Positions 56,905-60,569 of a DNA stretch of 64,000 nucleotides are shown piece by piece. The notes under the pieces are model-generated. The model saw only the letters and a list, made by a program, of their open reading frames with translations. It was not told where the DNA came from and made no database searches. How positions within the stretch are numbered: the first letter of the stretch is position 1; the number at the start of each line of letters is the position of its first letter. The position numbers were made by a program, and so were the translations under genes. Source of the stretch: Treponema sp. J25 (GTDB lineage: Bacteria; Spirochaetota; Spirochaetia; Treponematales; Breznakiellaceae); NCBI RefSeq assembly GCF_004343725.1, contig NZ_PTQW01000021.1, forward strand, positions 1 through 64,000, written 5' to 3'.

Positions 56905-58083
56905 ATGGCATCGGTTTGTTTGTATAACGCCACGGTATACACCGGTTTTGCCCTGATGGAACGGTGTGCCGTTCTTATCGAAGGGGGTGTCATAGCCGAT
57001 GTATTCTCCCAGCGCCGCTTTGAGCAACGACGTTTTGGGAGCGAAGTACAGGTGGTCGATGTCCAGGGATGCTATATAGCCCCCGGTTTTATCGATACCC
57101 ATATCCATGGCTTTGGCGGTTTTGGTACCGACGATATGTCCGCCGATTCGGTTATCGAAATGTCCCGTCTCTTGGCCCAACAGGGAGTCACCGCTTTTAA
57201 CCCAACCCTCTATCCGGCGGAACGCCCCCGGCTTATCGAAGCTGTAAAAGAGGCTTCCAGGGCCATCGGCAAAGAGTCGGGGGCCCGCATCATGGGGCTC
57301 CACCTGGAAGGCCCTTTCATAAGCCCCGAACGGCTTGGGGTCCAGCGGCCGGAAACCTTGAGCCCGGTGGATCTTTCCTATATGGAAGAACTCTGGGAAG
57401 CAAGTAACGGCCATATCGTCAACATGACCGTGGCACCGGAACTCAAAAACATGCGGGACCTGGCCCTGTATTGTACTAAGAAGGGGATCGTGCTCCAGGC
57501 AGGTCACACCAACGCCCAGTACGAAAACATGGTAGAAGGAATGCAGGTGGGTATCCTTCACACCACCCACCTTTTCAACGCCATGAGCAAGCTCGACCAC
57601 CGGAATCCCAATGCGGTGGGGGCGGTGCTCATTCATCCCGAGATGTCCTGCGAAATCATTGCCGACGGGGTACATGTGCATCCGGACCTTTTTAAGCTTT
57701 TAAAGCGGGATAAACCCTCCGACAAGATTGTTCTGGTTACCGATGCCCTTAAACCAACCGGACAAAATCCCGCGGAAGGACCCTTGTATGCAAACGGAGA
57801 AGAGGTAATCTGGAAAGAGGGAGCCTTTCACCGTAAAATTGATGATGTGATTGCCGGCTCAGGGCTTACTATGATCCGGGGGGTTCAAAACCTTGTGCGG
57901 TTTGGCTTTTCCCTTGAAGAAGCCCTCCAGGCCGCCAGTACCAATCCTGCCAACGTGATGCGCTTTAAGCGGCTTGGGACGCTTGTTCCGGGAAATGAAG
58001 GAGACCTGGTGGTATTCGATAAGGATTTTACTATCCATGCCACCCTGGTTCGCGGTTTATTCAAGAAAAACAATTTTGTCTAA
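56905..58083 (+). CDS. nagA: N-acetylglucosamine-6-phosphate deacetylase
   Basis: Metal-dependent amidohydrolase of 392 residues making glucosamine 6-phosphate and acetate. It has the metal-site-type [14 protein letters not shown] near residue 63, [16 protein letters not shown] with the metal-ligand Glu, [31 protein letters not shown] and VLVTDAL with the catalytic Asp. A strong AAGGAGG precedes the start. It supplies the substrate of nagB, 11 bases downstream. No GlcNAc kinase is encoded in the operon. Confidence 0.95.
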
Positions 58084-58094
58084 GGAGAAAGACC

Positions 58095-58883
58095 ATGCGT
58101 CTTATTATTCAAAAGGATTACGAAGCCATGAGCCAGTGGGCCGCGGCCTACATCCTGAAGAGGATTCAAGAATTTGCCCCCGGTCCGGGCAGGCCCTTTG
58201 TGCTGGGGCTTCCTACGGGTTCTACTCCCCTGGGGGTATACCGGGAATTTATCCGTTATTACCAGGAAGGACGTCTCTCATTCAAACATATCGTCACTTT
58301 TAACATGGATGAATATATTGGGCTCTCCCCAGAGCATCCTCAGAGTTACCATCGATTCATGCAGGAAAACCTTTTTTCTCACGTGGATATTCCTGCCGAA
58401 AACATCCACATTCCCAACGGCATGGCCCAGGACCTAAAAGCCGAATGTGAGCGGTATGAAGCAACAATACGGCACTATGGGGGAATCGAGTTGTTCCTTG
58501 GGGGGATGGGGGGAGATGGGCACCTGGCATTTAACGAACCAGGATCTTCCTTAAGCAGCCGTACCCGGGATAAGGAATTAACCCGGGATACCCGGCGGGC
58601 CAATGCCCGTTTCTTTGGGGGAGATCCCGAAAAGGTTCCTGCCGCAGCCCTAACCGTAGGACTGGGAACCATCATGGATGCCCGAGAAGTGGTGGTTCTT
58701 GCTTCAGGCCCTGCCAAAGCCCGGGCCCTGCAGGCCGCGGTAGAAGGACCGGTAACGCACCTCTGGCCTGTCTCGATCTTGCAGCTCCACCCGAGGGCAA
58801 TCATCGTATGCGATGAAGAGGCCACCGAAGAATTAAAAGTGGGAACCGTCCGCTATTTTAAAGAAATAGAAGGGCTTGCATAA
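58095..58883 (+). CDS. nagB: glucosamine-6-phosphate deaminase
   Basis: Converts glucosamine 6-phosphate to fructose 6-phosphate and ammonia. The 262-residue length and motifs [59 protein letters not shown] and [17 protein letters not shown] are typical. An AAGGAGA site precedes it. It is the last gene of the operon; the hairpin at 58911-58935 follows. Confidence 0.97.
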
Positions 58884-58910: not shown

Positions 58911-58935
58911 CAGGATAGGAGCCATTCCTATCCTG
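58911..58935 (+). repeat. perfect 10-bp hairpin between nagB and the mgtE leader
   Basis: CAGGATAGGA (58911-58920) is perfectly inverted at 58926-58935 with loop GCCAT. No U-run follows. It may mark the 3' end of the nag message, or be the first stem of the mgtE leader if transcription starts upstream (weak TTGCAT, 17 bases, TATGTT at 58876-58904). Confidence 0.6.
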
Positions 58936-58962
58936 CGTTGACCCCTGGCGATCTCGCATCTT

Positions 58963-59188
58963 TTACTAAGGAGGGATGGGTATGACCGATTCCGATGGCC
59001 CTGGTAGTCAGCCCCCGGAACCTTTCTTATGTATTCCTTGCGGAATACCCAACCGGGAGATGCCCTTAGTAAGAGAGCACAAGAAGACAACCAGGGAATA
59101 GTAAAGATCCTCAAAGCGAAAACCTGTTTTTCTTCTTTTATTCTTATTCTCTAAGGGCCTCCCGAAATGTAACCCACATGGAGGACCC
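58963..59188 (+). promoter_or_regulatory. mgtE leader RNA with mutually exclusive pairings
   Basis: TTACTAAGG (58963-58971, overlapping the leader peptide's ribosome site) is a perfect inverse of CCTTAGTAA (59064-59072). The overlapping GCCCTTAG (59062-59069) is also a perfect inverse of CTAAGGGC (59151-59158). GGGCCTCC (59155-59162) can pair with GGAGG-A-CCC (59180-59188), burying the mgtE ribosome site at 59179-59184. Internal stems GTATTCC/GGAATAC (59031-59048) and CCCGG/CCGGG enclose each other. The second and third pairings exclude one another. I see no M-box consensus. The 306-base gap holds this leader and its peptide only. Confidence 0.6.
58982..59101 (+). CDS. acidic, proline-rich leader peptide of mgtE, 39 residues
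   Basis: ATG at 58982 with AAGGAGG seven bases upstream, one of the best ribosome sites in the window; TAG ends at 59101. The peptide starts MTDSDGPGSQPPEPF, continues with a CxxC (CIPC) and has a basic end (VREHKKTTRE). The acidic and proline-rich N-terminus resembles in kind the MgtL and MgtP leader peptides of enterobacteria, where such residues destabilise the ribosome at low magnesium. It lies wholly in the leader of a magnesium transporter gene and overlaps the switching RNA stems. Function is inferred; expression is not shown. Confidence 0.6.
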   Translation: MTDSDGPGSQPPEPFLCIPCGIPNREMPLVREHKKTTRE

Positions 59189-59189
59189 C

Positions 59190-60569
59190 ATGGTAGAAGA
59201 ACTCATTTTACCCGATATCAAGGCCTTACTTGAAGAAGGGGCTACCGATGAGGTGGCCCAGTTTTTGAGTGACCGCTACCCCTCTGAGGTGGCAGAAATC
59301 CTTTCGAATTTTACCAAAGAGGAAGTATACGAAATCCTCAACAGGATGGATCCCCAGGTCCGGGCGGATGTGTTTTGCGAACTTCCCCAATCCTTGCAGG
59401 CAGAACTGGCTTCCCAGCTTGATAAAAACGAGCTTGCCAAGCTCGTCGTTCGCCTTTCCCCGGACGACCGGGTAGACCTTCTGAAGGCCCTGCCGGAAGA
59501 ACAGTTCGAAGAGGTCCTTCCTATTCTCGCCCAACGGGAACGGGAAGATATCCGGAAACTCGCTTCCTACCGGGAAGGAACCGCCGGGTCTATCATGACC
59601 ACCGATTATATCGCCCTGCCGGGGGATCTTTCGGTACGCCAGGCCCTGGAACGAATTCGGCTTGAAGGTTCGGCCAAAGAATCTATTTATTCCATTTTTG
59701 TGGTCGACGCCCACCGGCATCTCCTGGGGGTCATTGCCCTTGCCGACCTTATCCTTGCCAATCCCAATAAAAAACTTGAAGAAATCATGGATGACCAGGT
59801 GGTCAGCGTACAGGCCGATGCAGACCGGGAAGAGGCGGTATACAAGTTTTCCAAATATGACCTCGTGGCCCTGCCGGTGGTGGACCCCCAGGGTGTGCTG
59901 GTGGGTATTATCACCCACGACGATGCCCTGGACGTTATCGAGCAGGAACGAACCGAAGACATGGAACGGTTCATGGCCATCGCGGGGAAACACGAAGATA
60001 CGGCCTACCTTCACACCCCCATCTGGTCCCACTTCAGGCACCGGGTAGTCTGGCTTGTTATCCTCGCCGCCCTGGGGCTCATTTCAGGGGCCATCCTCCA
60101 ATCCTTCGAAGCAACCCTTACCAACCTGGTGATCCTGGCCTTTTACATGCCCATGCTTGCCGATACGGGGGGAAACACCGGGAGCCAGAGTGCGACGGTG
60201 GTGGTCCGGGCCCTGGCCCTTAAAGAAATAGAGCCCCGGGATACCCTGAAGGTGCTCTGGAAAGAATGCCGCGTGGGCTTGCTCTTAGCCCTGGTGTTAG
60301 GGGTTCTAGCCTTTGTCCGGGTATATTTCATGTCTAATCCCAGCCAGATACCACCGGGACTCGACGTGGTTCGCATCGGCCTTGCCATAGGGCTTGCCCT
60401 GGGCATTCAGGTAGTAAGCGCCACCGTTATTGGGGCTCTCCTGCCGCTCCTTGCGGCAGCGGTAAAGCTCGATCCCGCCCTGGTGGCAAGTCCGGCCCTG
60501 ACTACCATCGTGGATATCACGGGACTTTTCATCTATTTCAGCACGGCTAAATTTATCTTGGGTATTTAA
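59190..60569 (+). CDS. mgtE: magnesium transporter MgtE
   Basis: Inner-membrane magnesium channel of 459 residues. The start is the ATG at 59190, five bases after TGGAGG; an ATG at 59178 lies before that site. It has an N-terminal superhelical domain (about 15-125, repeats such as LPEEQFEEVLPILAQREREDIRKL). Two CBS domains follow (about 130-255, AGSIMTTDYIALPGDLSVRQALERI and VALPVVDPQGVLVGIITHDDAL). Five membrane helices (about 285-459) carry the pore signature MLADTGGNTGSQSATVVVRALAL. The N and CBS domains sense cytosolic magnesium at the protein level. The leader upstream suggests a second, translational level of control. Confidence 0.96.
   Translation: MVEELILPDIKALLEEGATDEVAQFLSDRYPSEVAEILSNFTKEEVYEILNRMDPQVRADVFCELPQSLQAELASQLDKNELAKLVVRLSPDDRVDLLKALPEEQFEEVLPILAQREREDIRKLASYREGTAGSIMTTDYIALPGDLSVRQALERIRLEGSAKESIYSIFVVDAHRHLLGVIALADLILANPNKKLEEIMDDQVVSVQADADREEAVYKFSKYDLVALPVVDPQGVLVGIITHDDALDVIEQERTEDMERFMAIAGKHEDTAYLHTPIWSHFRHRVVWLVILAALGLISGAILQSFEATLTNLVILAFYMPMLADTGGNTGSQSATVVVRALALKEIEPRDTLKVLWKECRVGLLLALVLGVLAFVRVYFMSNPSQIPPGLDVVRIGLAIGLALGIQVVSATVIGALLPLLAAAVKLDPALVASPALTTIVDITGLFIYFSTAKFILGI

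Follow-up and report, generated by a model that had tools for sequence, protein, structure and literature searches.

Does the short open reading frame that precedes the magnesium transporter gene mgtE in Treponema sp. J25 encode a leader peptide that controls the transporter as it is being translated, and what signal might such a leader report? Most of the described cases in which a peptide senses magnesium via ribosome stability come from enterobacteria, and most concern P-type ATPases; the MgtE transporter family is widespread in bacteria. The frame lies within a 64,000-nucleotide stretch of DNA, the whole of which is referred to here as the window.

The frame upstream of mgtE and its relatives

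The original prediction of a 39-codon frame with a good ribosome site upstream of mgtE is confirmed by the present analysis. The frame follows genes resembling nagA and nagB and is accompanied by several segments with predicted pairing partners, as listed below (SD, Shine-Dalgarno sequence).

56905-58083: nagA, named from its protein sequence only
58095-58883: nagB
58968..58974, + strand: leader SD, AAGGAGG, 7 nt before the leader ATG; inside segment A (58960-58975), which is complementary to segment B
58982..59101, + strand: leader peptide ORF, ATG...TAG, 39 codons plus TAG, MTDSDGPGSQPPEPFLCIPCGIPNREMPLVREHKKTTRE
58988..59023, + strand: conserved N-terminal coding stretch DSDGPGSQPPEP, the best candidate stalling or drop-off site
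59054..59075, + strand: segment B near the 3′ end of the leader ORF, CGGGAGATGCCCTTAGTAAGAG; pairs in folds with A (the leader SD) or with C
59151..59164, + strand: segment C, CTAAGGGCCTCCCG, predicted anti-SD of mgtE; pairs alternatively, in folds, with B
59180..59184, + strand: segment D, the mgtE SD GGAGG, predicted to be sequestered by C
59190..60569, + strand: mgtE, MgtE-family magnesium transporter, the putative regulated gene; start revised from 59178

A second in-frame ATG, at 58976, would yield a 41-codon version with an SD spacing of 1 nt. Because this spacing is too short and the relatives begin at the position of 58982, the latter is taken as the leader start. The downstream gene is identified as MgtE (TIGR00400, 395 bits). 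Its longest frame opens at 59178, and the start is placed at the ATG at 59190 on the basis of alignment with relatives and of the GGAGG at 59180, which has normal spacing to that codon; 88 nt then separate the end of the leader ORF from the likely mgtE start. Given its SD, its ATG and its conservation, the window leader is probably translated. Just 5′ of the leader, at 58911-58935, is a perfect 10-bp inverted repeat, CAGGATAGGA-GCCAT-TCCTATCCTG, with no T run after it, and a small hairpin before the leader SD seems, by eye, to be present in other leader loci too.

Similar frames can be found at related loci. Genomes of the order, together with a named genome collection, were searched for mgtE, which gave an orthologous set of 21 loci with 55-75% protein identity and readable upstream DNA. 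At 16 of these, representing 9 lineages, an SD-led ATG leader of 30-41 codons is located 147-198 nt before mgtE, and the five leader-less orthologues belong to the T. socranskii group and MS_R2_13. The SD, the ATG and the open frame are kept in every one of the 16 leaders though most of the RNA sequence has diverged. That the leader occupies the equivalent position in all 16 orthologues makes it more than a chance occurrence.

The conserved portion of the peptide is its N-terminus (MxDS[DE]..GSQPPEP, or MxxSDSSG..IPLP in rumen Treponema), while the C-terminus lacks conservation. The peptide type MxDS[DE]..GSQPP[ED]P is shared by the window, Gracilinema caldarium and its relatives, SKW19, RIFOXYC1, MM_PW and GWB1_60_80; MxxSDSSG..[IV]PLP occurs in five Treponema genomes, several of them from rumen or other gut samples, and MHDSAD...DVPxHS at two loci. 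A core of [Q/I/V]-P-[P/L]-[E/D/P] is common to most window-type leaders. The acidic and proline-rich character that was originally ascribed to the peptide is evident in residues 1-14 of the window leader (acidic D3, D5 and E13; prolines P7, P11, P12 and P14) and in most relatives, is weak in L043 and L045, and hardly applies to the rumen Treponema leaders MDQSDSSGSSSTIPLP and MSASSSGDGSIPLP, which are Ser/Gly-rich with few acids.

A profile of the leader has the mgtE site as its top match in all 16 genomes (E 2e-17 to 3e-5), compared with E 3e-4 or worse for the top match away from mgtE in any genome, a result that is partly circular because the same 16 leaders were used to build the profile. 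A DNA pattern of the SQPPEP-type motif matches 4 of 374 phylum genomes, once each and always before mgtE, and a reversed-control pattern has no match in the 374. By eye, the mgtE loci of Bacteroidota relatives mostly have coding sequence directly upstream and no comparable leader, and nothing similar was seen upstream of corA in the window genome.

Coding and predicted base-pairing parts of the leader

Within the N-terminal stretch, the window and SKW19 (L034) differ by synonymous change at six codons and by replacement at four, and third codon positions account for 8 of the 12 nucleotide changes; other pairs display a weaker excess of synonymous changes. The sole indel in this stretch among leaders of the SQPPEP group, an extra AGT in Gracilinema, is in frame. 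This codon-level evidence is moderate, since conservation extends to the nucleotides and leader codons 4-13 lie within a hairpin (UUCCG..CGGAA). In rumen Treponema, codons 8-16 of the leader likewise form a hairpin, in which GGC/TTG of L038 and L058 corresponds to GGT/TTA in L046, a change that is both synonymous and compensatory. The idea that the peptide arises only incidentally from a conserved RNA hairpin was considered and rejected; the hairpin over codons 4-13 exists but is more stable than its synonymous controls in only some of the leaders.

The 3′ half of the leader behaves differently. In Gracilinema relatives the stretch equivalent to segment B retains the DNA GTTCTAAACCGGAAGCCCTCCT, but its reading frame in L002 differs from that in L031 and L032. 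Conservation of the DNA despite a differing frame indicates that this half acts as RNA, through segment B, rather than as peptide. A putative nascent-chain part followed by a putative base-pairing part is the expected look of a cis-acting leader.

Downstream of the leader, the mgtE SD is paired in most folds of leader-bearing loci with an anti-SD that lies some tens of nucleotides 5′ of it. The anti-SD and SD sequences vary by lineage, being CCTCC/GGAGG in the window, GCTTCC/GGAGGC in Gracilinema, GGGTACC/GGTACCC in SKW19 and GGTCTCC/GGAGATT in rumen Treponema. Opening the mgtE SD of the window is predicted to cost 11.3 kcal/mol, compared with 7.0 +/- 1.7 kcal/mol in shuffles (fraction 0.02). 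The cost lies above that of shuffles of the upstream part at 14 of the 16 leader loci (13 at a fraction <=0.03, and L036 at 0.12), with a Fisher p of 1.3e-7 for the 9 lineage representatives; at L045 and L034 it is not beyond shuffles. No comparable sequestration was found in any of the five leader-less orthologues or in three other window genes, and the leader and the sequestering hairpin thus occur together. The window leader itself folds strongly (z=-2.4). In all 16 leaders the leader SD can pair with the leader 3′ part or with sequence just after it, at -12.5 to -21.7 kcal/mol (raw energies, without shuffle control), the A:B duplex of the window having -21.5 kcal/mol. Overall, leader conservation and a cis-acting architecture are well supported, and the folds support a sequestered SD that accompanies the leader.

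The proposed pairings A:B plus C:D, for a completed leader, and B:C, for an early stop, would be mutually exclusive, and the position of the ribosome could decide between them. Each leader was folded with 31 nt kept unpaired at selected codons to represent a ribosome footprint, alongside chimeras in which leaders were joined to downstream parts from different lineages. With the footprint at the leader end rather than at codons 12-18, the mgtE start region becomes costlier to open by a mean of +1.9 kcal/mol in native sequences versus -0.36 in chimeras (MWU p=3e-5 for all 16 sequences; a modest Fisher p=0.018 when each lineage contributes one). Individually, L002, L035, L036 and L044 have a large effect and the window a small one (+0.6), values for L034, L038, L043 and L054 are near zero, and those for L032 and L045 fall slightly below it. 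The effect is clear in Gracilinema caldarium, a relative that has been cultured. Sequestration of the SD is therefore the strong component, absent where there is no leader, and the effect of ribosome position is significant but small and uneven. That mgtE accessibility depends on where the ribosome stands in the leader is moderately supported by these folds, which lend support to, rather than prove, the two alternative states.

That the leader switches mgtE on or off is very probable, with magnesium, sensed by way of the translating ribosome, as its likeliest cue. Taken with the conserved N-terminus, these features make it reasonably probable that the window frame is a translated, cis-acting leader controlling mgtE by ribosome-coupled translational attenuation, in which an early stop at the N-terminus in low Mg2+ releases the mgtE SD. 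In the default state, the mgtE SD (D) would be held by the upstream anti-SD (C). A ribosome translating the whole leader would cover B, so that C stays on D and mgtE is poorly translated. If ribosomes instead stopped early, by stalling or dropping off within the Asp/Ser/Pro-rich N-terminus, as low Mg2+ should favour, B would be free to pair with C, releasing the mgtE SD and allowing more uptake. Three elements of this scheme are inferred: that ribosomes stall or drop off early, that they do so in response to Mg2+, and that mgtE is induced when Mg2+ is low.

In E. coli, EttA relieves pausing on early acidic residues. As a separate observation, the window's own 99.9% complete genome (G000) has no match to EttA (TIGR03719) above the cut-off; such a match is present in 12 of the 14 genomes searched.

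Leaders of distant mgtE genes

The order also contains a second, distant type of MgtE, with about 33-41% identity. Upstream DNA was read at 117 distant mgtE loci (L007-L022, L080-L086, L093-L187; counts unweighted for relatedness), and leaders were scored as acidic where an SD-led frame of 18-48 codons has acidic-x-acidic or Asp-Gly-Ser near its start, a criterion fixed after examples had been seen. Such leaders reside at 44 of the 117 loci, compared with 0.38 expected from shuffles. They fall into families typified by MSDSDGGGS, xxDTDSDPYGSK, MDDPDGSTDYHIRQ and MGDGSSSGSYPGN/MPDGSSSSGSYPAN, and MDDPDGSTDYH is also among the acidic N-termini at these positions. The original prediction looked to related genomes for conservation of the frame and its composition; both the frame and an Asp/Ser/Pro N-terminus recur in relatives, with other acidic leaders before the distant mgtE genes of the order.

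Among 30 mgtE loci of other orders in the phylum, L216 has MSDSDGSSRCQQ and L206 has MDDGTVPQQ, and the remaining loci of these 30 have nothing alike upstream of mgtE. The frame at L216 (G457), which is SD-led and begins MSDSDGSSRCQQKTQK..., resembles the MSDSDGGGS family, and is located outside Treponematales.

Sequestration of the distant mgtE SD is beyond chance in only a minority of loci. An SD hairpin as the common output of all mgtE leaders in the order was thus rejected, and the output mechanism is not uniform across the order, as the distant leaders do not share this hairpin. At L013, L120 and L125, a recurrent GTGTCCTC 3′ of the leader can pair with the SD region GAGGATAC of the distant mgtE, sometimes about 100 nt away.

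A broader proposal is that order-wide, sequence-diverse nascent-chain magnesium sensors control MgtE in spirochaetes, comprising several families (MxDSDGPGSQPPEP, MxxSDSSG..IPLP, MSDSDGGGS, DTDSDPYGSK, MDDPDGSTDYH and MGDGSSSGSYPGN), independent of MgtL, MgtP and MgtQ and standing where other bacteria use the M-box. We consider the case for and against this wider reading to be evenly balanced.

Known magnesium leaders and alternative explanations

The closest comparison is with mgtQ of Salmonella, in which Asp2 and Glu5 have been shown experimentally to destabilise the ribosome, favouring stem 2:3 over the stem 3:4 that holds the mgtB RBS (PMC8092293). Like mgtQ, the spirochaete leader is a short ORF with early acids before a Mg2+ transporter gene, its transporter RBS is predicted to lie in a 3:4-type stem, and its leader region is predicted to form alternative pairings (1:2, 3:4 or 2:3 in mgtQ). 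However, mgtQ is located between mgtC and mgtB, has 8 codons and serves a P-type ATPase of Enterobacteria (PMC8092293), whereas the present frames are 5′ leaders of 30-41 codons before mgtE of spirochaetes, and mgtQ and the window leader have no sequence likeness by eye. MgtL, the leader peptide of mgtA in E. coli and Salmonella, shares with the window leader an acidic, Pro-rich N-terminus; its EPDP motif causes drop-off, and mgtL acts through Rho termination on mgtA (PMC11282234), whereas the evidence here points to sequestration of the mgtE SD. The design of the spirochaete leader thus appears, by analogy, to match the logic of mgtQ and mgtL, with a different transporter family, a different phylum and unrelated peptides. 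The likeness to enterobacterial magnesium leaders originally proposed for the peptide extends to RNA architecture, in the predicted sequestration of the transporter SD and its alternative pairings with the leader end.

The M-box (RF00380), including the Mycobacterium M-box with uORFs (PMC12810186), also controls Mg2+ transporter or magnesium-linked genes, including those of the mgtE type. Neither the window nor any of the 14 genomes searched from its group gave an M-box match, in a search that does find the M-boxes of B. subtilis and L. lactis; the window region matches no other Rfam family either, the nearest match being at the level of chance. The candidate mgtE motif riboswitch of Thioalkalivibrio is, as here, a structured region 5′ of mgtE that includes the SD and AUG, but it is a candidate from one gammaproteobacterial genus and is not classed there as a uORF (PMC11109978). 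As originally supposed, the open-access literature yielded no account of an mgtE leader peptide from a spirochaete.

It could be that the leader is an attenuator responding to something other than Mg2+, with [Q/I/V]-P-[P/L]-[E/D/P] causing a proline-type arrest that reports EF-P activity, charged tRNA-Pro, m1G37 status or a small ligand. EF-P is known to act on PPE/PPD and on consecutive prolines. The proline core, in which P14 is invariant, is the one feature common to acidic and Ser/Gly-rich window-type leaders, and because some acid-poor leaders keep this core, such an arrest competes seriously with acidic destabilisation as an explanation. In Salmonella, mgtA and mgtB have been described as being under EF-P control (PMC6460261, PMC5299641). 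Yet the distant mgtE leaders often lack PP or PLP while keeping Asp-x-Asp or Asp-Gly, which fits ribosome destabilisation better, and the regulated gene is a Mg2+ transporter throughout, so that a non-Mg2+ signal seems unlikely, if conceivable. Somewhat more doubtful is that the same leader drives Rho-dependent or other transcription attenuation, with SD pairing secondary. The precedent of mgtL would accommodate this, as would an extended pyrimidine-rich segment (59127-59150) in the interval that separates the leader from mgtE, but that segment was noticed in the window only and SD sequestration is specific to leader-bearing loci. An attenuator based on intrinsic termination was rejected: no G+C-rich hairpin followed by a T run was found between the window leader and mgtE, and a simple custom scan gave terminator-like sites in just 1 of the 16 window-type leaders and none of the 44 distant ones.

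Strong folding and the hairpins over the early codons, including the compensatory change in rumen Treponema, are features that a structured RNA, either a metal-sensing riboswitch or a protein-binding leader, would also display, with the frame merely coincidental. This explanation is improbable given the lack of an Rfam match, the retention of SD, ATG and open frame in 16 of 16 leaders amid RNA divergence, the N-terminal residues kept across synonymous changes, and the recurrence of acidic SD-led frames before distant mgtE genes. Least credible is a free small protein acting in trans, for instance on the MgtE protein. Its N-terminus is conserved, and small regulators of Mg2+ transporters do exist in Salmonella, MgtR among them; however, the peptide has no obvious membrane segment and no domain match, its C-terminal half lacks conservation and changes frame between close relatives, and the predicted pairing with the start region of mgtE argues for a cis effect.

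Frames of such length are easily missed in annotation. If leader-coupled control of mgtE operates as proposed, the natural peptide variants, both acidic/Pro-rich and Ser/Gly-rich, would help to test which nascent-chain features destabilise or stall ribosomes. Recurrent acidic leaders before mgtE across Treponematales would extend the principle of peptide-based magnesium sensing to another phylum and to the MgtE family.
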